64,000 nucleotides of DNA, taken from Streptomyces carpinensis. GTDB taxonomy: Bacteria > Actinomycetota > Actinomycetes > Streptomycetales > Streptomycetaceae. A program made the translations under genes and the position numbers. The stretch's first letter is position 1, and each line of letters starts with the position of its first letter. The notes under the pieces were generated by a model. The model searched no databases. It was not told where the DNA came from and saw only the letters and a program-made list of their open reading frames with translations. Where the stretch lies: assembly GCF_002154505.1 (NCBI RefSeq), contig NZ_MUBM01000017.1:1-64000 (forward strand), written 5' to 3'. Shown here in pieces: positions 32,313 through 50,706 of the stretch.

Positions 32313-33362
32313 ATGACCGAGGGCAAGACCACGGCCGTGAACGCGGCGGGCGGCGATCCGCCCCCGTCCAGGAAGCTGTTCTCCGGGCCGCAGCCGAACG
32401 TGGCGCAGGCCGCCGGTTACCCCGACGCGCCGCCGCGCATGGGCTTCTTCACCGACACCTCCGTCTGCATCGGCTGCAAGGCCTGCGAAGTGGCGTGCAA
32501 GGAGTGGAACTCCGTGCCGGAGGACGGCCTGGAGCTGACCGGCATGTCCTACGACAACACCCAGGGGCTGGGCGCGGACACCTGGCGGCATGTGGCCTTC
32601 ATCGAGCAGCGCAAGCCGCTGGGCGGCCAGGAACCCGGCGTCGACCACAGCGGTTTCGACGTGTTCGAGGCAGCCCGCAACCTCGGCAGTTCCCCTGCCT
32701 CCCCCGGCCCCGGGGCCACCGCTCCCTCACCCGAGTCGGCGCCCGCGGGGGCGCCGGCCGGGTCGATCTCCCCGGTGTCGCCCGACGGGCGGACCGAGCT
32801 GCGCTGGTTGATGTCCTCCGACGTGTGCAAGCACTGCACGCACGCGGCCTGCCTCGACGTCTGCCCCACGGGGGCGCTGTTCCGCACCGAGTTCGGCACG
32901 GTGGTGGTGCAGGAGGACGTGTGCAACGGCTGCGGGTACTGCGTGCCCGCCTGCCCGTACGGGGTCATCGACCAGCGCAAGGAGGACGGCCGGGTCTGGA
33001 AGTGCACGCTGTGCTACGACCGGCTCGGTGTCGGCATGGAACCGGCCTGCGCCAAGTCCTGCCCCACCGATTCCATCCAGTTCGGCCCGCTGGAGGAGCT
33101 GCGCGAGCGGGCCGCTGCCCGGGTGGCGCAGCTGCACGCGGCCGGTGTCACCGATGCCCGGCTGTACGGCGAGAGCCCGGACGACGGGGTGGGTGGTGAC
33201 GGAGCGTTCTTCCTGCTGCTCGACGAACCCGAGGTCTACGGCCTGCCGCCGGACCCGGTGGTCACCACCCGGGACCTGCCGGCGATGTGGAAGCACGCGG
33301 CGATGGCCGCGGCCTCGCTCGCCGCGCTGGGCTTCGCCAGTTTCGTCAGGAGGCCCCGATGA
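32313..33362 (+). CDS. fdhB: Formate dehydrogenase Fe-S subunit (FdhB/FdnH-like)
   Basis: A 349-aa electron-transfer subunit with sixteen Cys in four [4Fe-4S] motifs: CIGCKACEVAC, CKHCTHAACLDVC, CNGCGYCVPAC and CTLC with CAKSC. A Pro/Ser/Ala-rich insert (about residues 128-155) separates clusters one and two. A C-terminal hydrophobic segment (about residues 325-345) could anchor it in the membrane, as in FdnH. AAGGAGG at 32299-32305 precedes ATG 32313. It overlaps the NrfD gene by 4 bases. It should take electrons from the selenocysteine formate dehydrogenase encoded at 39951. Confidence 0.9.
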   Translation: MTEGKTTAVNAAGGDPPPSRKLFSGPQPNVAQAAGYPDAPPRMGFFTDTSVCIGCKACEVACKEWNSVPEDGLELTGMSYDNTQGLGADTWRHVAFIEQRKPLGGQEPGVDHSGFDVFEAARNLGSSPASPGPGATAPSPESAPAGAPAGSISPVSPDGRTELRWLMSSDVCKHCTHAACLDVCPTGALFRTEFGTVVVQEDVCNGCGYCVPACPYGVIDQRKEDGRVWKCTLCYDRLGVGMEPACAKSCPTDSIQFGPLEELRERAAARVAQLHAAGVTDARLYGESPDDGVGGDGAFFLLLDEPEVYGLPPDPVVTTRDLPAMWKHAAMAAASLAALGFASFVRRPR

Positions 33363-34399
33363 GTGAATCGGATGTCACCCGCAAGGGTGTCGAGGGGGCG
33401 CGGCCGGGGCGCGAGGCCCTGACGGGCGCTCGTGCCGGGCGGCGCAGGCGGCGGCGTGGCCGCGGAGAGCAGCCGGTGGTCCCCGACGCCCGGTTCTCGT
33501 CGTACTACGGCAAACCGGTCCTGAACAAGCCCACCTGGAAACCCCTCGACATCGCCGGTTACCTCTACCTCGGCGGTCTGGCCGGCGGGGCGTCGCTGCT
33601 GGCGGCGGGCGCCCACGCCACCGGGCGCCCGGACCTGGCGCGCGTGACGAAGCTGGGTGCGGCAGGCGCCATCACCGTGTCGCTGGGCGCGCTCGTGCAC
33701 GACCTGGGCCGGCCCGCTCGTTTCATCAACATGCTCCGCGTCGTCAAGCCCACTTCGCCGATGAACATGGGCTCGTGGCTGCTGGCCGGGTACGCGCCGC
33801 TGACGATGGCCGCCGCTGCCGCCGATGTGGCCGGCCGCTACCGCCTCGTCGGCGCGGGCGCCACGGCGGCCGCCGCCGCGCTGGGTCCGGCGGTCGCCAC
33901 CTACACCGCGGTGCTGCTCTCCGACACGGCGGTGCCGTCCTGGCACGAGGGCTACCGGGAGTTGCCCTTCGTCTTCGCCGGTTCCGGAGCCAGTGCGGCG
34001 GCAGGCCTGGCGCTGGCCTTCGTGCCGGCTGCCCAGGCCGGTCCGGCTCGCCGCATGGCGGTGCTCGGTGCCGCGCTGGAGCTGGGCGCGTTCCAGCTGA
34101 TGAAGCGGCACATCGGTCTGGCGGCCGAGCCGTTCGAGCAGGGCAGGCCGCACAAGCTGCTGCGGGCCGCGGAAATGCTCACGGCGGGTGGCGCCGCGCT
34201 GGCGGCGTACGCGGGTGCGGGCGCGGGTCCGCGTGCCGGGTGGCGGGGCAGGGCGCCGGCGGTCGCGGCCGGGCTGGCCCTGCTGACCGGTTCCGCCGCA
34301 CTGCGGTTCGGGGTGTTCCACGCCGGGGTGCACTCGGCGGAGGACCCGAAGTACACGGTCGTACCTCAGCGGGAGCGGATGCGGGCCCGCGCCGGCTGA
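33359..34399 (+). CDS. NrfD/PsrC-type membrane subunit
   Basis: A 346-aa NrfD-family protein. A basic cytoplasmic N-terminus (residues 1-40) precedes eight or nine hydrophobic segments, with GGLAGGASLLAAG in helix 1 and HDLGRPARFINMLRVVKPTSPM typical of NrfD/PsrC. The family passes electrons between Fe-S subunits and quinone without haem. ATGA overlap with fdhB shows coupling. It is the probable quinone-reactive subunit of the formate dehydrogenase. Confidence 0.9.
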   Translation: MSESDVTRKGVEGARPGREALTGARAGRRRRRRGRGEQPVVPDARFSSYYGKPVLNKPTWKPLDIAGYLYLGGLAGGASLLAAGAHATGRPDLARVTKLGAAGAITVSLGALVHDLGRPARFINMLRVVKPTSPMNMGSWLLAGYAPLTMAAAAADVAGRYRLVGAGATAAAAALGPAVATYTAVLLSDTAVPSWHEGYRELPFVFAGSGASAAAGLALAFVPAAQAGPARRMAVLGAALELGAFQLMKRHIGLAAEPFEQGRPHKLLRAAEMLTAGGAALAAYAGAGAGPRAGWRGRAPAVAAGLALLTGSAALRFGVFHAGVHSAEDPKYTVVPQRERMRARAG

Positions 34400-34598: not shown

Positions 34599-35285
34599 TC
34601 AGGCCCCTCCCAGACGCCGGGCGAGGTCTCGCAGGCCGGTCGCGGCGACGTCGGCGGGACGGAAGGCGGACGGGTAGGGCTGGGGCGTGCGGCTCAGCCA
34701 TGCGGTGCGCAGGCCCGCGCGGGCGGCCCCGTCGACGTCCCAGGGGTGCACCGCCACGAGCATCGCCGAACCGGCCGGCACGCCGGCCGCCCGAACGGCG
34801 TGGGCGTAGGCGGCCGGGTGCGGCTTCCAGCGGCCACCGGCGCCCTGGATGTCCAGATGGGCTTCGAAGCAGTCCGCCAGGCCGGCCTTGGCCAGGACCG
34901 CGCGGGTGGTGTCCGCCGATCCGTTCGTCAGCGTGATCAGCCGGTGCCCGGCCCTGTGCAGGGCGCGTACGCCGTCGGGGACGTCCGGGTGGACCGGCAG
35001 TTCCGGCAGCGCGGCCAGGACGCGCCCGGTCAGGGGCTCGGGGTCCTCGCCGGGCCGATCCCGTGCCAGCAGGGTCCGCAGTCCGTCCGCGGCGACGTCC
35101 GAGAAGGGGGCGTGGCCACCGGCGAGAGTCAGGGCGATACCGTCGCGCAGCACACCGGCGAACCACAGTGGCAGTACGTCGGCCGAGAGCCCCGCCGCGC
35201 CCAGGCAGGCGCCGAGCGGGCTCATGTCGGTGAGGGTTTCGTTGACGTCGAAGACGAGGACGTCCGGGCGGGTGTCAAGGGGCAT
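34599..35285 (-). CDS. HAD-family hydrolase (haloacid dehalogenase type II)
   Basis: A 228-aa HAD hydrolase. Motif I is VFDVNETLTD (about residues 9-18), motif II ITLTNGS, motif III WKPHP and motif IV LVAVHPWDVDGA, the arrangement of type II haloacid dehalogenases, although the substrate may be a phosphate ester. GGAAGG 8 bases before ATG 35285 fixes the start. It overlaps the preceding membrane protein gene by 11 bases, so it is part of the alternative oxidase operon, perhaps by chance. Confidence 0.85.
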   Translation of the reverse strand: MPLDTRPDVLVFDVNETLTDMSPLGACLGAAGLSADVLPLWFAGVLRDGIALTLAGGHAPFSDVAADGLRTLLARDRPGEDPEPLTGRVLAALPELPVHPDVPDGVRALHRAGHRLITLTNGSADTTRAVLAKAGLADCFEAHLDIQGAGGRWKPHPAAYAHAVRAAGVPAGSAMLVAVHPWDVDGAARAGLRTAWLSRTPQPYPSAFRPADVAATGLRDLARRLGGA

Positions 35286-35808
35286 GGGGGCCACCTTCCG
35301 GGGAGGGGACGAGGGTGCGGGCGGCCAGCCGCTCCTCCCGGTTCGCCCAGGACCAGGTGATCGCCGCCGCGGCGACACCGATCGGCAGCATGCCCGCGAT
35401 CATCGCGATCCCCTGCGCCGGCTGACCGGCCGCGACGACGCCGACGGCGGGCAGGTCCAGCAGCGGCGCGGCGAGGAACAGGTACAGGCACCGGCCGGCG
35501 TCACCGAGGCGGTGCCGGGTGCGGGCGAGCACGGGAATCCAGAAGAGCACCGCTGCGGCCAGCAGCACCGGCTCGCTCACCCACGCGCCGCCCGGGAGAC
35601 CGTCGTGCGGCAGGCCGCCGAGCACCACCCCGGCGTGCAGCAGTACCAGCAGCGGCAGGGCGACGCCCGCGGGCACGCTCACCCGCTGCCACAGCGGCGA
35701 GCGCCGGGCGAGCATCAGCACAGCCGGGACCACGGCGGCCGGCACGAAGCCGGAGAGCCCCATCGCGACGACGGACGACAGGGAGGCCGGGTCCGTCGAG
35801 TGGTGCAT
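35275..35808 (-). CDS. Membrane protein resembling CtaG-type oxidase assembly factor
   Basis: A 177-aa protein with four or five membrane helices. The C-terminal pattern CLYLFLAAPLLDLPAVGVVA and a final helix ending in EERLAART resembles the C-terminal half of caa3_CtaG assembly proteins, but the family match is from memory and partial. GGAGG 8-10 bases before ATG 35808 supports the start. It lies directly after the oxidase genes on the same strand, consistent with a role in CuA/CuB assembly. Confidence 0.55.
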   Translation of the reverse strand: MHHSTDPASLSSVVAMGLSGFVPAAVVPAVLMLARRSPLWQRVSVPAGVALPLLVLLHAGVVLGGLPHDGLPGGAWVSEPVLLAAAVLFWIPVLARTRHRLGDAGRCLYLFLAAPLLDLPAVGVVAAGQPAQGIAMIAGMLPIGVAAAAITWSWANREERLAARTLVPSPEGGPHAP

Positions 35809-35813
35809 GCGGA

Positions 35814-36173
35814 TCACCCCTCCGAGGCCGTGGTGCCGTGCAGGGCCAGCGCGATCGCCACGCCGAACAGCGGGACGGCGAGCGCCAGCAGCCACAGGCC
35901 GTAGACGAAGGCCAGCGCGACGAGCGCGCAGCCGAGGGCCACGACCGGTACCGCCCCTGCCCCGCGATCCGGCACCCGGTAACGGACGTGCTGGTCGGGG
36001 CCGGTACGCGAGGAGGCAAGCACGGCCAGCGCGGCCACTTCCAGCAGCGCGACGACACCTCCGTACAGCCAGAAGACCAGGGAACTCTCGCCGTAGATGC
36101 CGAGCACGGCCAGCAGGAGTCCGTTGAGCGCGCCCCAGCCGGCGACGACCACGTACGGCAGATGGCGTTTCAC
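35814..36173 (-). CDS. Small membrane protein of the alternative oxidase unit
   Basis: A 119-aa protein with four hydrophobic segments; a possible analogue of small oxidase subunits such as CtaF. Its GTG overlaps the ctaD2 stop by four bases (GTGA), so it is translationally coupled. No family is recognised with confidence. Confidence 0.65.
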   Translation of the reverse strand: MKRHLPYVVVAGWGALNGLLLAVLGIYGESSLVFWLYGGVVALLEVAALAVLASSRTGPDQHVRYRVPDRGAGAVPVVALGCALVALAFVYGLWLLALAVPLFGVAIALALHGTTASEG

Positions 36174-37864
36174 GATCCGCTCGCCCCCTCCTGCTCCGCT
36201 CCCACCGCCGCCCCGCTCGCCCGTCGCTCCCGCAGGTCGAGGAGCGGGGCGAAGCTGGTGATGGGCGGCAGCGACCGGTCCGCGGCGAAGTTGAACCGGG
36301 GCGGCGGCGAGGACGTGGCCCATTCCAGGGTGTGCGCCTGCCACGGGTCGTCGCCGGCGTTCCCCGACCGGCCCAGGGCCACCTTGCGCAGCGTCCACAG
36401 CACGTTCACGACGAAGACGCCGATGCCCACGGCGAGGAAGCCCGCCCCGATGCTGGCGAGCAGGTTCAGCCAGGCGAAGCCGTCGAAGGAGGCGTAGGTC
36501 GCCACCCGGCGCGGCATGCCCTGGTAGCCGAGGGCGAACATGGGCAGGAACGTCAGGTTCGTGCCGACCACCAGCAGCCAGAAGTGCAGCCGGCCGAGCC
36601 GCTCGCTCAGCATCGCCCCGGTGACCTTCGGGGTCCAGTAGTAGACGGCCGCGAACAGACCGAAGGCACTGCCGGCGAAGAGCACGTAGTGCAGGTGGGC
36701 CACGACGAAGTAGCTGTCGGTGACGTGGTAGTCGATCACCGGGGTGCCGACCATGATGCCGGTGAGCCCCCCGATCAGGAACTGCGGGATGAAGGCGAGG
36801 GCGAACAGCATCGGCGTACGCAGGCGGATCCGGCCGCCGAGGATCGTGCCGATCATGCCGAAGTACTCCACGCCCGCGGGGACGAGGAGGGCGATGGACG
36901 TCAGGGAGTAGTAGTCGTTGGTGGCCTGTCCGGTGGCGAACATGTGGTGGCCCCACACGCTCATGGACAGGGCGGCGAAGACCAGCAGCGACAGGGCTGT
37001 GCCCTTGTAGCCGAAGAACCGGCGGCCGGAGAAGACGGCCAGCACCTCCGCGACGGCGGCGAGGTAGGGGAAGAACATCACGTACACGACCGGGTGACCG
37101 TAGAACCAGAACAGGTGCTGGTAGCCGATGTTCCAGGTGTTCGAGGTGAAGACGGAGGCGTCGGCGCGGCCCACGGCCAGCAGGGCGAGCGCCGCGAGCA
37201 GGGCGGGGAAGGCACCGATCACCATCAGACAGCTGGCGATCATCGACCAGCAGAACACGGGCAGGCGCAGCATCGTCATGCCCCGCGCGCGGCGTCGCAG
37301 CACCGTCCACAGCACGGTCCAGCCCATGATGATGACGCCGGTGGTGGCCAGGAGGACCCCTGCGATCCACAGGTCCGACCCGAGGCCGGGCGAGTGCACC
37401 TTGTCCGCGAGCGGCGGGTAGGAGAACCAGCCGCCCGCGTGGGCTCCCTGGGGCGTGGCGAAGCCGGAGAGCATCAGCACGGCGCCGAGCACGTAGAGCC
37501 AGTAGCCCAGCAGTGTCAGGCGCGGTGCGGCGATGCCTGGTGCCCCGATCTGCAGCGGCACCAGGTAGGTCCCCATCCCGACGGCGAACGGGGTGAGCAC
37601 CATGTAGATCATGCCGGAACCGTGGATGGTGAAGAGCTGGCTGAAGGTGGCCGGGTCGACCACGTGCAGGTCGGGCTGGGCGAGCTGGCTGCGCATCAGC
37701 AGGGCGAGAACGCCCATGAGCAGGAAGATGACCAGCGAGGTGCCGATGGTCAGCAGCCCGATGCGCTTGTGGTCCGTCGAGGTCACCCAGCCCAGCCAGC
37801 CGCCCGGGACGACCGGCCGGCCCCCGGTGTCCTCGGTGCCGGCGGCGGGGGACGCGACTGTCAC
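36170..37864 (-). CDS. Divergent cytochrome oxidase subunit I (ctaD2)
   Basis: A 564-aa haem-copper oxidase subunit I with twelve predicted helices. Haem and CuB ligands are complete: His81, His257, His306, His307, His390, His392, plus Tyr261. Compared with ctaD1 at 2828, the proton-channel residues are replaced: Asn to Thr99, Asp to Gly110, Asn to Thr117, Glu to Val259 (GHPVVY), Thr to Ala330 and Lys to Glu333 (VPAGVE). The start is GTG 37864, overlapping the ctaC2 stop. It pairs with the subunit II gene upstream; no subunit III is nearby. It may be a non-pumping or specialised oxidase. Confidence 0.92.
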   Translation of the reverse strand: MTVASPAAGTEDTGGRPVVPGGWLGWVTSTDHKRIGLLTIGTSLVIFLLMGVLALLMRSQLAQPDLHVVDPATFSQLFTIHGSGMIYMVLTPFAVGMGTYLVPLQIGAPGIAAPRLTLLGYWLYVLGAVLMLSGFATPQGAHAGGWFSYPPLADKVHSPGLGSDLWIAGVLLATTGVIIMGWTVLWTVLRRRARGMTMLRLPVFCWSMIASCLMVIGAFPALLAALALLAVGRADASVFTSNTWNIGYQHLFWFYGHPVVYVMFFPYLAAVAEVLAVFSGRRFFGYKGTALSLLVFAALSMSVWGHHMFATGQATNDYYSLTSIALLVPAGVEYFGMIGTILGGRIRLRTPMLFALAFIPQFLIGGLTGIMVGTPVIDYHVTDSYFVVAHLHYVLFAGSAFGLFAAVYYWTPKVTGAMLSERLGRLHFWLLVVGTNLTFLPMFALGYQGMPRRVATYASFDGFAWLNLLASIGAGFLAVGIGVFVVNVLWTLRKVALGRSGNAGDDPWQAHTLEWATSSPPPRFNFAADRSLPPITSFAPLLDLRERRASGAAVGAEQEGASGS

Positions 37865-38517
37865 GTCGCGGTCCCTGTCCCGGTGCCGATCGGCTGCCCG
37901 TGCAGGTACCGGTCGTACTCCTCGGGCGAGACGGCCTTGATCCAGAAGTCCATGGCGTAGTGCCTCTCACCGCAGAACTCCGCGCACCGGCCCCGCCAGC
38001 GGCCCTCATGGTCGAGGGTGAGGGTGAAGGTGTTCACGTGGTCGGGGAAGGCGTCCATCTTGTAGCGCAAGTCCGGGACCCACAGCGAGTGGATGACGTC
38101 GTTGGAGGTCAGTCGCAGCTCCACGGGGCGACCGGTGGGCACGACCAGCGTGGGCAGGTCCTTGCCGCGGCAGGTGCCGGTGACGCTGACCTTGGCGGGG
38201 GACTGCGGGTAGCCGAACTTCCAGCACCATTGGAAGCCCATCACGTCGACGCGGACGGGTGTGCGGTTCGGTGGGCGGTGCTCCTCGTGGTTCTGCCAGG
38301 CGGTCCAGGCGACGAGGAACGCCGCGAAGGCGGCGAGGACACCGACGTAGTACTTCTCCAGCACGGGACGTTGGGGCCTGTCCGAAGGGGTCGGCTGCCG
38401 GCCGGCACGCCGCCTGACGACCGCGTGGCACACCAGGGCGAGGACGACCAGGAACACGAATGCGGCGACGGCCGACTCCAGGGTGAAGACGGTGCCGAAG
38501 ACACGGCGCTGGATCAC
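37861..38517 (-). CDS. Cytochrome oxidase subunit II (ctaC2) with CuA site
   Basis: A 218-aa subunit II. Two membrane helices (about residues 10-32 and 55-73) precede a cupredoxin domain with the CuA ligands His in NDVIHSLWVPDL, then CAEFCGERHYAM. An aromatic electron entry patch is present as GFQWCWKF. No c-type haem motif (CxxCH) is present, so electrons must come from a separate cytochrome. GAAAGGG 7 bases before GTG 38517 supports the start. It heads the ctaC2-ctaD2 unit. Confidence 0.92.
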   Translation of the reverse strand: MIQRRVFGTVFTLESAVAAFVFLVVLALVCHAVVRRRAGRQPTPSDRPQRPVLEKYYVGVLAAFAAFLVAWTAWQNHEEHRPPNRTPVRVDVMGFQWCWKFGYPQSPAKVSVTGTCRGKDLPTLVVPTGRPVELRLTSNDVIHSLWVPDLRYKMDAFPDHVNTFTLTLDHEGRWRGRCAEFCGERHYAMDFWIKAVSPEEYDRYLHGQPIGTGTGTAT

Positions 38518-39950: not shown

Positions 39951-42900
39951 ATGGGCGTACGCACCTGGATCGACTCCTGGCCGGTCTACCGCCAGCTCAA
40001 GGGCACCGACCCCCTGGGCCGCGGGGCCGCCGCCAAGAGCGGACCCAGCGCACGGCTCACGCCCCGGGTCGCCTCCGCGGACCGGGTGGTGAAATCGGTC
40101 TGTCCGTACTGCGCCGTGGGCTGCGGCCAGAACGTCTACGTGGAGGACGAACGGGTCACGCAGATCGAGGGCGACCCGGACTCCCCCATTTCCCGTGGCC
40201 GGCTGTGCCCCAAAGGCGCAGCCAGTCTCCAGCTGACCACCGGGGAGGCCCGGGAGCACTACGTCCTCCACCGGCGCCCGTACGGCACCGAGTGGGAGCG
40301 CCTCGACCTGGACACGGCGATGGACATGATCGCCGACCGGGTGATCGAGGCCCGCCGCGCGGGCTGGCAGTGGGAGGTCGACGACGTCCGCACCCGGCGC
40401 ACGCTGGGCATCGCCAGCCTCGGTGGAGCCACCCTGGACAACGAGGAGAACTACCTGATCAAGAAGCTCTTCACCGCCCTGGGAGCGATTCAGATCGAGA
40501 ACCAGGCGCGTGTTTGACACTCCTCCACCGTTCCCAGTCTGGGAACCTCGTTCGGCCGCGGCGGCGCGACCACCTTCCAGCAGGACCTGCAGAACTCCGA
40601 CTGCATCGTCATCCAGGGCTCGAACATGGCCGAGTGCCATCCGGTCGGGTTCCAGTGGGTGATGGAGGCCAAGGCCCGGGGCGCGAAGGTGATCCACGTC
40701 GACCCGCGGTTCACCCGGACCAGCGCGCTGGCCGACCTGCACGTGCCGCTGCGCGCGGGCTCCGACATCGCCTTCCTCGGCGGGATCGTCAACTACGTCC
40801 TCAGCAACGACAGGTACTTCCGTGACTACGTCGTCGCCTACACCAACGGACCCGTGGTGCTGAGCGAGGACTTCTGCGACACCGAGGACCTCGACGGCGT
40901 GTTCTCCGGGCTCGACCGGGACAGCCGCAGCTACGACAACAGCAGCTGGCAGTACGAGGGCATGGAGATCCAGGCGGCCTCCGGGCAGCGCGACGCGGAG
41001 TACGACAAGCGCACCGGTGCCGGCGCCTCGGTGAGCGCGGCGGGCCGCGGAGAGGCCCACGGGTCGGGCGGCGCCGACATCGGCGAGGGCGAGCCGCAGC
41101 GGGACGAGACGCTGACCCACCCGCGGTGCGTCTTCCAGGTGCTCAAGCGGCACTACGCCCGGTACACCCCCGAGATGGTGGAGCGGATCTGCGGGGTGCC
41201 GCAGGACCTGTTCCGGCAGGTGTGCGAGCTCGTCACGGAGAACTCCGGGCGCGAGCGGACCACCGCGTTCGCCTACGCGGTCGGCTGGACCCAGCACACC
41301 GTGGGGGTGCAGTACATCCGGGCGGCCGCCGTGCTGCAGAGCCTGCTGGGCAACATCGGCCGACCGGGCGGCGGCATCCTCGCGCTGCGCGGGCACGCCT
41401 CCATCCAGGGCTCCACGGACATCCCCACCCTGTTCAACCTGCTGCCCGGGTACATCCCGATGCCGCACGCGCACAAGCGGGAGGATCTCGACGCCTTCGT
41501 CAAGGCCGAAGCGGCGAGCAAGGGCTACTGGGGCAACATGCGTGCCTACATGGTGAGCCTGCTCAAGGCGTACTGGGGCGACGCGGCCACGCCCGACAAC
41601 GACTTCTGCTTCGACCATCTGCCGCGCCTGACCGGCTCGCACTCCACCTACGAGACGGTCATGGCCCAGCTGGAGGGGACCTGCAAGGGCTACTTCCTGA
41701 TGGGCGAGAACCCCGCGGTGGGCTCGGCCAACGCCAAGATGCAGCGGCTGGGCATGGCCAACCTGGACTGGCTGGTCGTGCGCGACTTCTCGCTCATCGA
41801 GTCGGCCACCTGGTGGAAGGACGGCCCGGAGATCGAGACCGGGGAGCTGCGCACGGAGGACATCCGCACCGAGGTGTTCTTCCTGCCGGCCGCCGCGCAC
41901 ACCGAGAAGGACGGCAGCTTCACCAACACCCAGCGGCTGCTGCAGTGGCACCACCAGGCCGTCGAACCGCCCGGCGAGGCCCGCAGCGACCTGTGGTTCA
42001 CCTTCCACCTCGGCCGGCTGATCCGGCAGAAGCTCGCCGGGTCGACCGATCCGATGGACCGGCCGGTGCTCGACCTGACGTGGGACTATCCGACGAAGGG
42101 CGCCACCGCCGAGCCCGAGGCGGAGGCGGTGCTCGCCGAGATCAACGGCTACGACGCCGAGGGCAACCCGCTGTCCTCCTACGAGCAGCTCAACGCCGAC
42201 GGCTCGACCGCGTGCGGCTGCTGGATCTACTGCGGTGTCTACAGCGACGGCGCCAACCAGGCCGCCCGGCGCAAGCCGGGCAAGGAGCAGAACTGGGTGG
42301 CCAACGAGTGGGGCTGGGCCTGGCCCGCCAACCGCCGCATCCTGTACAACCGGGCCTCGGCGGACCCGGACGGCAGGCCGTGGAGCGAGCGCAAGGCACT
42401 GGTGTGGTGGGACGAGGCGAAGGCGGAGTGGACCGGCCACGACATCGCCGACTTCGCCAAGGACAAGTCCCCCTACCACCGGCCGCCCCCGGACGCGACC
42501 GGCGCCGAGGCGCTGTCGGGCACCGACGCGTTCATCATGCAGGCCGACGGCAAGGCCTGGCTGTACGTGCCGTCCGGGCTCACCGACGGCCCGCTGCCCA
42601 CTCACTACGAGCCGCAGGACTCGCCCTTCCCCAACCTGCTCCACGAGCAGCAGCGCAATCCCGTACGGCAGTTGATGCCTTCGCACCCCGACAACCGCTA
42701 CCAGCCCAGCGGCGACGAGCCGGGCTCGGAGGTGTTCCCGTACGTGGCGACCACCTACCGGCTCACCGAGCATCACACCGCGGGTGGCATGTCGCGCTGG
42801 CTGCCGTATCTGGCGGAGCTCCAGCCGGAGTTCTTCTGCGAGGTGTCACCGGAACTCGCCGCCGAGCGCGGTCTGGAGCACACCGGCTGGGCGACGATCG

Positions 42901-43211
42901 TCAGCGCCCGGGGCGTGGTCGAGGCGCGGGTGCTGGTCACCGACCGGGTGCCGCCGCTGACCGTGCACGACCGCACCCTGCACCAGGTGGGGCTGCCCTA
43001 CCACTGGGGGCCGAACGGCTACAGCACGGGCGACGCCGCCAACGAGCTGGTGCACCTGTCGCTCGACCCCAACACCCACATCCAGGAGACCAAGGCGTTC
43101 GCCGTCGACATCCGTCCGGGGCGCCGCCCCCGGGGTCCGGCCGCCGTGGAACTGGTGCGCGCCTACCAGGCACGGGCAGGCATCGACGACCGTACGGGCA
43201 CCGAGCCCTGA
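39951..43211 (+). CDS. fdhA: Formate dehydrogenase catalytic subunit, selenocysteine-containing
   Basis: A 1086-aa molybdopterin enzyme that oxidises formate to CO2. The N-terminal [4Fe-4S] motif has Cys51, Cys54, Cys58 and Cys86 (CPYCAVGC then CPKG). The reading frame contains one TGA at 40515-40517, codon 189, in QARV-U-HSSTV, exactly where selenocysteine sits in FdnG/FdhF, followed by the invariant His. The frame then continues unbroken for 897 codons through the molybdopterin domains. GAAAGGG at 39936-39942 precedes ATG 39951. There is no twin-arginine signal, so the enzyme should face the cytoplasm. Membrane partners fdhB and NrfD lie at 32313-34399. Confidence 0.95.
40515..40546 (+). 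promoter_or_regulatory. Selenocysteine codon with downstream SECIS-like hairpin
   Basis: UGA at 40515-40517 is followed 12 bases later by a hairpin: GTTCCCA (40530-40536) pairs perfectly with TGGGAAC (40540-40546) around GTC. The apical AGUCUG resembles the GGUCU loop of the Escherichia coli fdhF SECIS, and the 19-base distance from UGA to the loop G fits the bacterial window. It should recruit the SelB encoded at 47311-49128. Confidence 0.85.
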
Positions 43212-43266: not shown

Positions 43267-44292
43267 TCACCTGAGGACCACCGAGTGGGGCCCGCGCGGG
43301 AGGAGTTCGCCGATCACCGGGGCGCCGGGGATCTCGCCGGCGACGAGCAGACCCCCGGAGGTCTGGGCGTCGGCCAGCAGGAGCCGGGTGTCCGGGTCCG
43401 TGTCGCCGAAGTCGGTGAACGGCGCCACCCACTCGAGGTTCCGCCGGGTGCCGCCGCTGACGTAGCCGTCCCGCACGGCCTGACGGGCCCCGTCCAGCCA
43501 GGGCACGGCGGCGGTGTCGACGACCGCGGTCACGCCCGAGGCCCGGGCCAGTTTGTGCAGATGGCCGAGGAGGCCGAAACCCGTCACGTCCGTCGCGCAG
43601 GAGGCGCCACTGGCGAGCGCCGCCTCGGACGCGTCCCGGTTGAGGGCCACCATCGTGGCCACGGCCTGCTCGAACCGTTCGCCGGTGGCCTTGTGACGGT
43701 TGTTCAGCACGCCCAGGCCGAGCGGTTTGGTCAGCGACAGGGGCAGGCCGGGCCGGCCGGCGTCGTTGCGCAGCAGCCGTGCCGGGTCGGCGAGGCCGGT
43801 GACAGCCATGCCGTACTTGGGCTCGGGGTCGTCCACGCTGTGTCCGCCGCCGACGTGGCAGCCGGCCTCGGCGGCGATCTCCAGGCCGCCGCGCAGCACC
43901 TCTCGGGCCAGGTCGAACGGCAGCAGGTCACGTGGCCATGCCAGGAGGTTCACGGCGAGGAGCGGACGGCCGCCCATGGCGTACACGTCGGACAGGGCGT
44001 TGGCCGCCGCGATGCGCCCCCAGTCGTACGGGTCGTCGACGACCGGCGTGAAGAAGTCCGCGGTCGACACCATGGCCTGGGCGGCGGCACCCTCGGGTGC
44101 GGGCAGGGTGACGACGGCCGCGTCGTCACCGGTGGCCAGTCCCACCAGCAGGGGGGCGTTGCCCGGAGACGGGAGCGCGGTCGCCAGGCCGCCCAGCATG
44201 TCCTCCAGTTCGCCGGGCGGGATCTTGCAGGCGCAGCCGCCGCCGTGGGCGAACTGCGTCAGCCGTACGGGTGTTTCGGGGGTGGCGGTCAT
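43267..44292 (-). CDS. selD: Selenide, water dikinase SelD
   Basis: A 341-aa selenophosphate synthetase, making selenophosphate from selenide and ATP. The catalytic motif is HGGGCACK near residues 16-23, with Cys20 at the position of Escherichia coli Cys17 and Lys23 at that of Lys20; it is a Cys form, not a selenoprotein. Further motifs TGDDAAV, GGHSVDDPEPKYG and TDVTGFGLLGH are intact. GAAGGA 6 bases before ATG 44292 supports the start. It is convergent with fdhA and divergent from the tRNA-Sec gene, 31 bases away. Confidence 0.95.
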   Translation of the reverse strand: MTATPETPVRLTQFAHGGGCACKIPPGELEDMLGGLATALPSPGNAPLLVGLATGDDAAVVTLPAPEGAAAQAMVSTADFFTPVVDDPYDWGRIAAANALSDVYAMGGRPLLAVNLLAWPRDLLPFDLAREVLRGGLEIAAEAGCHVGGGHSVDDPEPKYGMAVTGLADPARLLRNDAGRPGLPLSLTKPLGLGVLNNRHKATGERFEQAVATMVALNRDASEAALASGASCATDVTGFGLLGHLHKLARASGVTAVVDTAAVPWLDGARQAVRDGYVSGGTRRNLEWVAPFTDFGDTDPDTRLLLADAQTSGGLLVAGEIPGAPVIGELLPRGPHSVVLR

Positions 44293-44323: not shown

Positions 44324-44416
44324 GGAGGCGTGTGGGTGCCTGGTGGCCCTCCCGGTCTTCAAAACCGAGGTGCCCGAGGATCTCGGGCAGGCGGGTTCGA
44401 TTCCCGTCCGCCTCCG
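44324..44416 (+). tRNA. selC: tRNA-Sec (anticodon TCA)
   Basis: A 93-base tRNA. The anticodon loop CTTCAAA carries TCA and sits on a CGGT/ACCG stem. The acceptor GGAGGCG (44324-44330) pairs with CGCCTCC (44409-44415). The long variable arm forms an 8-bp stem TGCCCGAG/CTCGGGCA, and the T loop TTCGATT closes a 6-bp stem with one G-U pair, giving the 13-bp acceptor-T helix of selenocysteine tRNAs. CCA is not encoded. TAGCCT at 44308-44313 is a plausible -10 box. Confidence 0.92.
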
Positions 44417-47310: not shown

Positions 47311-49128
47311 TCAGAGAGTCGGGGCCGATTCCCGTCCGCCTTCGTCCCTCTCCCCCGTACGGCAGCGTCTGCGCTGGGCGTCGACGCGTTCCGTCAGTCC
47401 CCGGGCGTCGAGGAACTCCAGCAGCGGGACGGCGACCCTGCGGGTGGTGTCGAGCGCCTTGCGGGCCTCGCTGAGGGTGAAGGGCTGCGGCAGTCCGCGG
47501 AGCACCTCGGCGGCCCGGGCGTCCGACCCCGGGAGCAGGACGACGGCGTCGGTGATCCGCAGCAGCGCGCCCGCGCGGACGGCGGCGGCCACGGTCCGGC
47601 GGGTGAGCCCGAGTTCCGTGAGCCGGTCGGCCTCCGGCGCGCGGAACGGCGCCTTCTCCAGCTCCTGCCGTACCGCGTCGACGGCGGCCTGGACGGGCGG
47701 GGGCAGGCAGGGGCTGCTGCTGTCGGGGCGGTACAACCGGCCCTGACGGCACAGCAGTCGGCTGTCGCCCGGGGTGTCGGCCAGGGCGTCCACCAGGGCC
47801 CGGTCGGGAAGCCCCAGCAGCCGCCGGGCCGCCTCGGTCGGCAGGCCCGGTTCCATGGGGTGCTGCCGTGCGTGCCGCTCGACCTCGGCGGCCAGGCGCT
47901 CGCGCAGCCGGGCCCAGTGCGCCGGGTCGGCGAGCCAGTCGCCGGTGACCGGCTCGCCGGGCGCGGGCACACCCATCGCCAGCAGGTCCGTACGGCGGAC
48001 GAGCCGGCGGCGCCGCAGTTCCGCCGCGCCGTCGGGACGCCCCGTCATCTCCGCCAGCTGCGCCGCCCTGGCCCGGCCCGCGCCCCGCCGGGCCAGGCGC
48101 GGTGGGCGCACGTCCAGCACGACCACGGCGAAGGGCGGGCGTCCGCCGCCCGGTTCGCGCAGCACCGCCCGGTCCCCGACGCGCAGCGGCAGCGGCCGGC
48201 TCAGCGTCAGCCTGGCGGTGTCGTCGCCCAGGGGTCGGACGGTCACGGGCACCGCGGCGGTGCCGATGTGCAGGCCCACCGTCCGGGGCAGCCGGTCCAC
48301 GGTCTCGCCGGTGACGCGGACGTCGACCAGGCCGGTGAGCAGCCACCGGTCCGGGGCCAGCAGCACCTGACCGCGCCGCAGCTCACCGTCCCGGTCCCCG
48401 TGCACGTTGACCGCCACCCGCGCCACCCCGCTGACGACGGTCCGCTCCTGCTGGAGGCACTGCAGTCCGCGCACCCGCAGCACCGCCGAGCCGTCGCCGG
48501 TCGCCAGCCGGTCCCCGATGCGCAGGGTGCCGGCGCCCAGCGTGCCCGTCACGACGGTGCCGTGTCCGCGCACCGTGAAGGCCCGGTCCAGCCACAGCCG
48601 TACGTCGGCGTCGGCGGACGGTACGGGCAGCGTGCGGGCGAGCCGGGACAGCTCGGTGCGCAGGCCGTCCAGTCCGGCGCCGGTCACCGCGCTCACCGCG
48701 ACGGAGGGGACGGGACCCAGCGAGGTCTCGGCCAGCCGCCGCAGCGCGTCGGCGCGCACCGGTTCGGGGTCGGCGAGATCGCTGCGGGTCACGGCGAGCA
48801 CGGCGTGCCGTACGCCGAGGGCGTCCAGGATCGCCAGGTGCTCCTGCGACTGGGGCTGCCACCCCTGGTCGGCGGCGACCACGAACAGCACGGCGGGCAC
48901 GGGACCGACCCCGGCCAGCATGGTGGCCACGAACCTCTCATGCCCCGGCACGTCCACGAAGGCCAGGTGCTCGCCGTCCGCGTCCGGCCCCGTCCATACG
49001 AAGCCGAGGTCGAGGGTGAGTCCGCGGCGCTGTTCCTCCGCGTAGCGGTCGGGCTCCATCCCGGTCAGCGCCCGCACCAGGGCGGACTTGCCGTGGTCGA
49101 CGTGGCCCGCGGTGGCCAGAACCCGCAT
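47311..49128 (-). CDS. selB: Selenocysteine-specific elongation factor SelB
   Basis: A 605-aa translation factor that delivers Sec-tRNA to UGA at a SECIS hairpin. The GTPase motifs are AGHVDHGKS (residues 7-15), DVPGHE and VTRSD in place of NKxD. EF-Tu-like domains follow, then the C-terminal winged helices that bind SECIS RNA (about residues 350-590). ATG 49128 is preferred over GTG 49137 because GGTGG is about 7 bases upstream. The last 15 residues (TGERDEGGRESAPTL) fall on the duplicated tRNA-Sec sequence and may be a replaced C-terminus. It lies 9 bases after selA. Confidence 0.93.
   Translation of the reverse strand: MRVLATAGHVDHGKSALVRALTGMEPDRYAEEQRRGLTLDLGFVWTGPDADGEHLAFVDVPGHERFVATMLAGVGPVPAVLFVVAADQGWQPQSQEHLAILDALGVRHAVLAVTRSDLADPEPVRADALRRLAETSLGPVPSVAVSAVTGAGLDGLRTELSRLARTLPVPSADADVRLWLDRAFTVRGHGTVVTGTLGAGTLRIGDRLATGDGSAVLRVRGLQCLQQERTVVSGVARVAVNVHGDRDGELRRGQVLLAPDRWLLTGLVDVRVTGETVDRLPRTVGLHIGTAAVPVTVRPLGDDTARLTLSRPLPLRVGDRAVLREPGGGRPPFAVVVLDVRPPRLARRGAGRARAAQLAEMTGRPDGAAELRRRRLVRRTDLLAMGVPAPGEPVTGDWLADPAHWARLRERLAAEVERHARQHPMEPGLPTEAARRLLGLPDRALVDALADTPGDSRLLCRQGRLYRPDSSSPCLPPPVQAAVDAVRQELEKAPFRAPEADRLTELGLTRRTVAAAVRAGALLRITDAVVLLPGSDARAAEVLRGLPQPFTLSEARKALDTTRRVAVPLLEFLDARGLTERVDAQRRRCRTGERDEGGRESAPTL
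47326..47346 (+). repeat. Distal copy of the tRNA-Sec 3' direct repeat
   Basis: Matches 44398-44418 at 20 of 21 bases and lies inside the 3' end of selB. With the copy in the tRNA it brackets 44419-47325. Confidence 0.65.
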
Positions 49129-49137
49129 GGCGCCCAC

Positions 49138-50547
49138 CTACCTTTCCGCCCTCGGGGTGGCCGACCGTACGGCCTCGGCCAGCCGGTCGTCGTCCTCCTG
49201 TGCCACCGCCCGCAGGTCCAGCAGGCATCGCCCGGCCTCCAGGCGGCCCACCACGGGGACGGTGCCGGTGCGCAGCACGGCCGCGTACGGCTCCGGCAGC
49301 GACAGGGCGGCGCTGGGCAGGGTCACGCCCGGTGCGCCCCCGCCGCCGACCGTGGCGGTGCTGGCGACGGCCCGTACGTCGGCACCGGCGGCGCTCAGCG
49401 CGGCGGCGAGCCGTTCGGCGCGGCGCATGAGTTCCCGCGGGTCGGCGGTCAGGGACGCGGCGGTCGGGGTGCCGGGGCCCGTGAGGGTCGCCTCCAGCGC
49501 GGCCAGGGTGAGCTTGTCCACGCGCAGCGCACGGGCCAGGGGGTGCCGGGACACGGCGCGGACGATGTCCTCGTCGCCGAGGAGCAGTCCGCACTGGGGT
49601 CCGCCGAGCAGCTTGTCCCCGCTGGCGGTGACCAGCGACGCGCCGGCCCTCAGCTGCGTCTCGGCATCGGGCTCGTCGGGCAGCAGCGGGTGCGGGGCGA
49701 GCAGCCCGGAGCCGATGTCGACGACCACCGGCACGCCGAGTGCCGCCAGTTCGCGGGTCCCGGCGGCGCGGGTGAAGCCGGTGATGCGGAAGTTGGAGGG
49801 GTGGACCTTCAGGACGAAGGCGGTCTGAGGGCCGATGGCGTCGGCGTAGTCCTCGACGCCCGTGCGGTTGGTGGTCCCGACCTCGCGGAGCCGGGCACCG
49901 GTGGAGACCAGCAGGTCCGGCAGCCGGAAGCCGTCCCCGATCTCCACCATCTCCCCGCGGCTGATGACGATCTCCCGGCCGGTGGCGAGCGCGGTGGCGG
50001 CGAGGACGAGGGCGGCGGCGCCGTTGTTGACGACGTGTGCCGCGGCGGCGGACGGCACCCGGCCGCGCAGCGCGTCCAGGGCGGAGCGGCCCCGGCGGGC
50101 CCGGACACCGGTCCGCAGGTCCAGCTCGACGTCGGTGGGTCCGGCGGCGTCCAGCACCGCCTGCCGGGCCGCCGCCGACAGCGACGCCCGGCCGAGGTTG
50201 GTGTGCAGCAGCACGCCGGTGGCGTTGATCACCGGTCGCAGCCCGCAGGCCGCGCGCGGCAGCAGCGTCACCGCCCTGTCCGCCACCTCCTCGGGCGGGA
50301 GCCCGCCGTGGCGAGCCTGCCGCTGTGCCTGCCGGACGGCGGCTTTCACGGGTCCCGGCCCCAGCCGCGCCGCCGCCTCCAACAGGCGCGGGTCGCGCAG
50401 GACGGCATCGGTGCGCGGAATCCGCCGTCGCGGGTCGGTGTCGGTGCCCGCCCGCGTGGGCCCGGAACGGTGGCCGGGGCCGTCGCCTCCGGCCGGTCCC
50501 GCGCCGTGCCGATCCGTCTCGCTCTCCTCCGCGACCCGCTGGTCCAC
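49138..50547 (-). CDS. selA: L-seryl-tRNA(Sec) selenium transferase SelA
   Basis: A 469-aa PLP enzyme that converts Ser-tRNA(Sec) to Sec-tRNA(Sec) using selenophosphate. The PLP lysine lies in ASGDKLLGGPQ; the N-terminal NATGVLLHTNLGRA and VVDIGSGLL motifs are family-typical. GGAGGGG 5 bases before GTG 50547 supports this start over the longer frame to 50634. It is the first gene of a selA-selB unit with 9 bases between the genes. With selD and tRNA-Sec it completes the Sec pathway. Confidence 0.94.
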   Translation of the reverse strand: MDQRVAEESETDRHGAGPAGGDGPGHRSGPTRAGTDTDPRRRIPRTDAVLRDPRLLEAAARLGPGPVKAAVRQAQRQARHGGLPPEEVADRAVTLLPRAACGLRPVINATGVLLHTNLGRASLSAAARQAVLDAAGPTDVELDLRTGVRARRGRSALDALRGRVPSAAAAHVVNNGAAALVLAATALATGREIVISRGEMVEIGDGFRLPDLLVSTGARLREVGTTNRTGVEDYADAIGPQTAFVLKVHPSNFRITGFTRAAGTRELAALGVPVVVDIGSGLLAPHPLLPDEPDAETQLRAGASLVTASGDKLLGGPQCGLLLGDEDIVRAVSRHPLARALRVDKLTLAALEATLTGPGTPTAASLTADPRELMRRAERLAAALSAAGADVRAVASTATVGGGGAPGVTLPSAALSLPEPYAAVLRTGTVPVVGRLEAGRCLLDLRAVAQEDDDRLAEAVRSATPRAER

Positions 50548-50706
50548 GCGGCCCCTCCGTTCCTGGCCCGGCCTCACGGCTGTGCAGGCGCCACGCCCAT
50601 CGTCTCCCGGTCCCCGCGGCCGCCCGTACGACACGCCGGTACCCCGGCAGCGGCGGGCGATGCGTCCGCACGCTCGGGGCCGACCGCGTGCCGGCCGCCC
50701 CCGCTG

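Follow-up and report, generated by a model that had tools for sequence, protein, structure and literature searches.

Probable selenocysteine-containing formate dehydrogenase encoded in Streptomyces carpinensis, and a candidate selenoprotein family sharing the selenium machinery of the genus

A formate dehydrogenase (FDH) alpha subunit gene of Streptomyces carpinensis, located in a window of 64,000 nucleotides (the whole stretch of DNA analysed here), is predicted from its sequence and from comparison with its relatives to encode a selenocysteine (Sec)-containing enzyme of the FdnG/FdoG type, with Sec inserted at the in-frame UGA of codon 189. We assign this reading a probability of about 0.97. 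Read directly, the frame has a single internal stop ahead of its terminal TGA, flanked by the residues QARV-U-HSSTV. This bears out an earlier note on this DNA, which had claimed that one TGA alone interrupts the catalytic gene and that standard gene calling would misread it; plain calling splits the gene in two. The complete product matched NF041513, an actinobacterial formate dehydrogenase model, over residues 6-1074 with 2038.6 bits (cut-off 1400), as well as the full-length FDH alpha model TIGR01553 with 946.3 bits (cut-off 814.2), and contained the Pfam domains Molybdop_Fe4S4, Molybdopterin and Molydop_binding. The coordinates of all features are given in Table 1.

Table 1. Features of the window and loci of the candidate selenoprotein family, with the basis of each assignment.
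Feature	Position	Strand	Basis
Probable FDH iron-sulfur (beta) subunit	32313..33362	+	Cysteine clusters by eye
NrfD-type membrane subunit, probable FDH gamma	33287..34399	+	Pfam NrfD 53.8 bits (cut-off 25.8)
FDH alpha subunit gene (1086 residues if UGA189 specifies Sec)	39951..43211	+	Family models NF041513 and TIGR01553
In-frame UGA, predicted Sec codon 189	40515..40517	+	Sole internal stop; structure alignment; genus alleles
Predicted SECIS hairpin, 7-bp stem, GUC loop	40530..40546	+	Folding; kept in UGA alleles
selD, selenide water dikinase	43267..44292	-	TIGR00476 371.6 bits (cut-off 125)
tRNA-Sec (selC), anticodon UCA	44324..44415	+	Rfam RF01852 77.3 bits (gathering 47); ARAGORN
selB, Sec-specific elongation factor	47311..49137	-	TIGR00475 239.5 bits (slightly below cut-off 242.25)
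selA, selenocysteine synthase	49138..50634	-	TIGR00474 410.5 bits (cut-off 267.9); Pfam SelA
Candidate selenoprotein family, about 245-270 residues	Genus loci L110-L121; GTDB contigs L122-L201; e.g. L104:13046-13783, L097:12354-13154	+ (both examples)	

The earlier note had placed the TGA at the position of the active-site Sec and proposed an alignment with FdnG as a check. In that alignment, codon 189 fell under the non-standard residue X of E. coli FdnG (1kqf, NQARVXHG), and it also fell under the X of the tungsten FDH 1h0h (HQARIXHS), so that the UGA coincides with a known active-site Sec in both. The two enzymes share with the window protein not only this residue but homology over two long stretches, and differ from it in that the window protein has extra residues (about 337-379) between both aligned stretches.

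The genes of the Sec machinery, selD, tRNA-Sec, selB and selA, were all found within 8 kb past fdh, and the assignment of SelB was further supported by the Pfam domains SelB-wing_3 and GTP_EFTU, both above cut-off. As for the remaining FDH subunits, relatives of the probable beta subunit adjoin other UGA-containing fdh genes (for example L087 and L091-L095), and relatives of the probable gamma subunit were likewise found beside such genes; the start listed for the gamma candidate falls within the preceding gene and has probably been set too far upstream. The FDH genes of the window are split by several kilobases because minus-strand genes (34599-38517) lie between beta/gamma and alpha; by eye, these resemble genes for cytochrome oxidase (subunits I and II) and for a dehalogenase-like protein. 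The same genome carries a second UGA-containing fdh gene (L091; contig C430, 6456-9677, minus strand), which is 65% identical, has the UGA at the same place and a hairpin of the same kind, and is adjoined by FDH beta- and gamma-like genes.

Past the UGA, the sequence GUUCCCA-GUC-UGGGAAC can pair into a 7-bp stem capped by a loop of 3 nt. The earlier note had given its length and its start, 12 nt past the TGA, correctly, but the AGUCUG described there as the tip takes in the uppermost pairs as well as the loop. According to PMC13188914, bacterial SECIS elements have a loop of 3-9 nt, an upper stem of 4-16 bp, a G within the first two positions of the loop, a UGA-to-loop spacing of 16-37 nt and a minimum free energy (MFE) of at most -7.5. 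As the note had expected of spacing and loop, the fdh hairpin lies within all of these limits (a 3-nt loop, GUC, on a stem of 7 bp; UGA-to-loop spacing 19 nt; MFE -9.4 kcal/mol), which chance sequences often satisfy too. The folding energy of the 7-bp hairpin was average: it was not below that of dinucleotide shuffles (z -0.11; 81 of 200 at least as stable), nor was it exceptional among synonymous recodings (P = 0.435). Folding energy was therefore rejected as proof of a SECIS element. Stems of at least 7 bp obeying the loop and spacing rule arose in 22% of 20,000 synonymous recodings, and a comparable stem of at least 7 bp followed 77 of the 1040 other fdh codons.

A search with bacterial SECIS models, another check that had been suggested, gave a divided answer. 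Rfam SECIS_3 (RF01989) did cover the site, at 40512-40570 (28.9 bits, E 7.5e-5 in a search of 201 bases), but remained below its gathering threshold of 63; applied to the whole window at gathering thresholds, Rfam returned tRNA-Sec only and no SECIS match. The UGAC start and the CCAGUCUGG tip of SECIS_3 align with the window hairpin, whereas the hairpin does not form several of the pairs that the Rfam consensus has in its lower stem. When plasmids were searched with the SECIS region, 54 records of related DNA were retrieved, mostly 60-80% identical. In a single sequence, then, the hairpin is weak evidence that proves little, and it is the comparison across the genus that decides.

For this comparison, a sample of 295 Streptomyces genomes was searched, 77 of which contained fdh at E <= 1e-100. 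At most two fdh candidates were scored per genome, and at most nine for the candidate family described below, so the fdh counts are lower bounds and further copies of either gene may be missed. A total of 82 fdh alleles were read, once two loci of the window genome had been removed as duplicates and one motif match as a chance hit; a fragment from genome G152 (residues 1-182) stops short of the codon and stands outside the set. Codon 189 was TGA in 42 alleles from 40 genomes, TGC in 36 and TGT in 4. All seven hairpin pairs were present in the same register in 42/42 UGA alleles but in 0/40 Cys alleles, in which four (30 alleles), five (8) or six (2) of the pairs were formed; another stem of at least 7 bp somewhere in the allowed range was found in 5/40 Cys alleles. 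Mean heterozygosity among UGA alleles was 0.03 in the hairpin codons (6 columns) versus 0.18 beyond them (73 columns), while among Cys alleles the hairpin codons were more variable (0.33) than the rest (0.24). The earlier note had named Cys homologues combined with an unconserved hairpin as an outcome that would speak against Sec; Cys homologues do exist, and they are the ones without the hairpin, every UGA homologue having it. The genus thus provides a natural control, in which the hairpin is retained by UGA alleles and lost by Cys alleles.

This pattern bears on the possibility that near-cognate readthrough places an ordinary amino acid at the UGA, the hairpin being merely a by-product of the coding sequence. 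The frequency of comparable stems among synonymous recodings fits such readthrough, but neither the register fixed in all UGA alleles and lost from all Cys alleles nor the company of tRNA-Sec does, and we consider it very improbable. Two further positions separate the allele classes. Codon +6, which lies in the stem, encodes Pro (always as CCC) in 42/42 UGA alleles and Ala in 40/40 Cys alleles, so that the RNA seems to determine the residue at this position. The base preceding the codon (40514 in the window) is T in 42/42 UGA alleles and in 0/40 Cys alleles, and is perhaps part of the recoding context. Since TGA is one base away from both TGC and TGT, a Cys allele could be turned into it by faulty sequencing or assembly; such an error, though, would hardly recur at one codon in 42 alleles together with these linked differences, and its likelihood is negligible. 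Covariation within the hairpin was thin: among 18 distinct rows every pair was kept and one pair changed on both sides (U-A to C-G, in two rows), and the evidence for the hairpin is conservation more than covariation.

The distribution of tRNA-Sec followed that of the UGA alleles. It was detected with at least 68.6 bits in 52 of the 295 genomes, the next matches scoring at most 51, and was present in 39/40 genomes with a UGA fdh compared with 3/37 having a Cys fdh only (Fisher P = 3e-17 within fdh carriers, uncorrected for kinship). The exception with a UGA fdh, G102, in which tRNA-Sec was not found, is a draft of 1420 contigs. A true stop at codon 189, leaving either a recent pseudogene or two separately expressed pieces, would be compatible with the sequence taken alone and with a thermodynamically ordinary hairpin; it is about as improbable as near-cognate readthrough, for the TGA aligns with a known Sec, and the same TGA and hairpin have been kept throughout the UGA alleles almost only where tRNA-Sec is present. 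Together with the structure alignment and the sel genes of the window, this co-occurrence argues for the Sec reading proposed in the earlier note.

By analogy with the known family, we infer how the Sec-containing FDH would work. SelB carrying Sec-tRNA-Sec would bind the hairpin past UGA189 and deliver Sec there, with selA, selB, selC and selD, which lie a few kilobases from fdh, providing the machinery. Sec189 would then be a ligand of the active-site molybdenum or tungsten, formate would be oxidised, and the electrons would exit via the iron-sulfur and NrfD-type subunits. An enzyme of this type is already known in Streptomyces, and an NCBI family model exists for it. The 2015 genome announcement of Streptomyces incarnatus NRRL8089 reported a Sec-containing FDH-O with an opal codon in frame, a SECIS element immediately behind that codon, and a cluster of selA, selB, selC and selD close to the gene for the alpha subunit (PMC4498112). 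By that published description, the strain resembles the window in genus, enzyme type, opal codon with SECIS element and nearby selABCD, and the arrangement reported here is therefore not new. FDH alpha is also the first entry in the table of prokaryotic selenoproteins in PMC13188914.

Thirteen genomes of the genus sample had tRNA-Sec but no UGA fdh, and the question of why some genomes retain tRNA-Sec in this situation led to a second finding. Recoding of a sense codon as Sec was rejected for the three genomes that combine tRNA-Sec with an fdh without TGA (G037, G156 and G271), because in all three the tRNA-Sec anticodon is TCA (L100, L105, L109), the fdh codon is TGC (L077-L079) and a different UGA-containing gene is present. 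That gene emerged from a scan for UGA codons in the sel gene neighbourhoods of L087 and of the 13 exceptional genomes, which yielded many chance candidates and one recurrent candidate, a membrane-protein ORF with a single in-frame TGA in the context SGSV-U-TRNSA. In the genus search it was found in 12/295 genomes, with TGA in each and tRNA-Sec in 12/12, and it was carried by 11 of the 13 genomes (Fisher P = 3e-10, uncorrected for kinship). UGA fdh and this gene together cover 50 of the 52 tRNA-Sec genomes. The other two (G215, locus L102, and G276, locus L107) possess tRNA-Sec, selA, selB and selD, neither UGA gene having been found in them, and may encode a further selenoprotein. No member was found in the window genome with queries P0002 and P0003 or profile A1.

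GTDB species genomes were then scanned with conserved stretches that lie downstream of the TGA and are distinct from it. This gave 155 relatives, 80 of which were kept, from Streptomyces, Micromonospora, Stackebrandtia, Actinomadura, Actinoallomurus, Actinophytocola, Thermomonospora and others. All 80 had the TGA, which brings the UGA to 92/92 loci of the family proper, and tRNA-Sec reached at least 66.7 bits in 50/50 of the non-Streptomyces genomes checked (out of 57 such loci). Two tRNA-Sec matches of at least 69 bits were seen in 8 of these 50 (G685, G699, G701, G706, G717, G718, G720 and G721). The family has its own SECIS-like hairpin, UCGCCA-GGU-UGGCGR with a flanking C-G pair, whose loop lies 33 nt past the TGA. 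An alignment of 73 of the 92 loci (60 distinct rows) showed pairing in 97.9% of cells; one pair changed on both sides in three rows and was broken in six. Covariation does not single out this register, as sliding the partner by -1 gave two two-sided pairs versus one, but pairing in the slid register dropped to 53%.

Against Pfam and NCBIfam, the family proper had no match at E <= 1. Modelled with C in place of U, the read-through protein was predicted to adopt one confident helical fold (pLDDT 91.6, pTM 0.90). Fold searches with this model returned no convincing solved relative; CcdA (5vkv) was a weak match at rank 2 in Foldseek (E 0.24, TM 0.32) and was absent from the matches listed by VIA. 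At L150 and L143 a MauE gene lies upstream of the UGA gene, which is immediately preceded by a gene for a protein with a peptidoglycan-binding domain whose first half is, by eye, cysteine-rich and exported-looking; at L150 the intervening ORF appears thioredoxin-like by eye.

When 396 genomes of the phylum were searched with a profile, 11 gave matches, and these revealed distant relatives with the motif WSP-U-GES. TGA occupied the aligned position in L203, L205, L206, L208, L209 and L210, with tRNA-Sec above cut-off in 6/6, and TGC in L204 and L211, with a tRNA-Sec match above cut-off in 0/2. One exception, L212, a weak match (20.6 bits), has TGA and no tRNA-Sec above cut-off. In L207 the site is masked, and L202 and L213 are pieces from G594, a genome with tRNA-Sec and one TGA. 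With Pfam DsbD_TM and DsbD_2, four distant relatives had E values of 0.0006 to 0.11 and one of 8e-5, all below cut-off; the best scores were 23.0 bits for DsbD_2 (cut-off 24.9) and 19.9 bits for DsbD_TM (cut-off 27.1).

The family therefore combines, the weak L212 aside, a conserved UGA, a SECIS-like hairpin, co-occurrence with tRNA-Sec and Cys homologues in genomes without tRNA-Sec, and as a selenoprotein family it looks like a strong prediction. A literature search, with subscription papers mostly outside its scope, found no paper on such a protein, and the accessible portions of PMC5029168 and PMC5330540 make no mention of it. Table 1 of PMC13188914, which holds 119 families or subfamilies by the text of that paper, contains in its accessible part no entry matching the family by motif or description; the nearest entry there, by name, is TsoB (rhodanese/DsbD-like).

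On these genomic grounds, the selenium machinery of the genus probably serves both FDH and an undescribed membrane selenoprotein family (SGSV-U-TRNS) with its own SECIS hairpin. Its members may pass electrons across the membrane, using selenium where distant relatives use cysteine. Of the 13 genomes in the genus sample where tRNA-Sec persists without a Sec-containing FDH, the family would account for 11 if this is true. This probable new selenoprotein family spans several actinomycete families and, if real, would alter the view of selenium use in these mostly aerobic soil bacteria.
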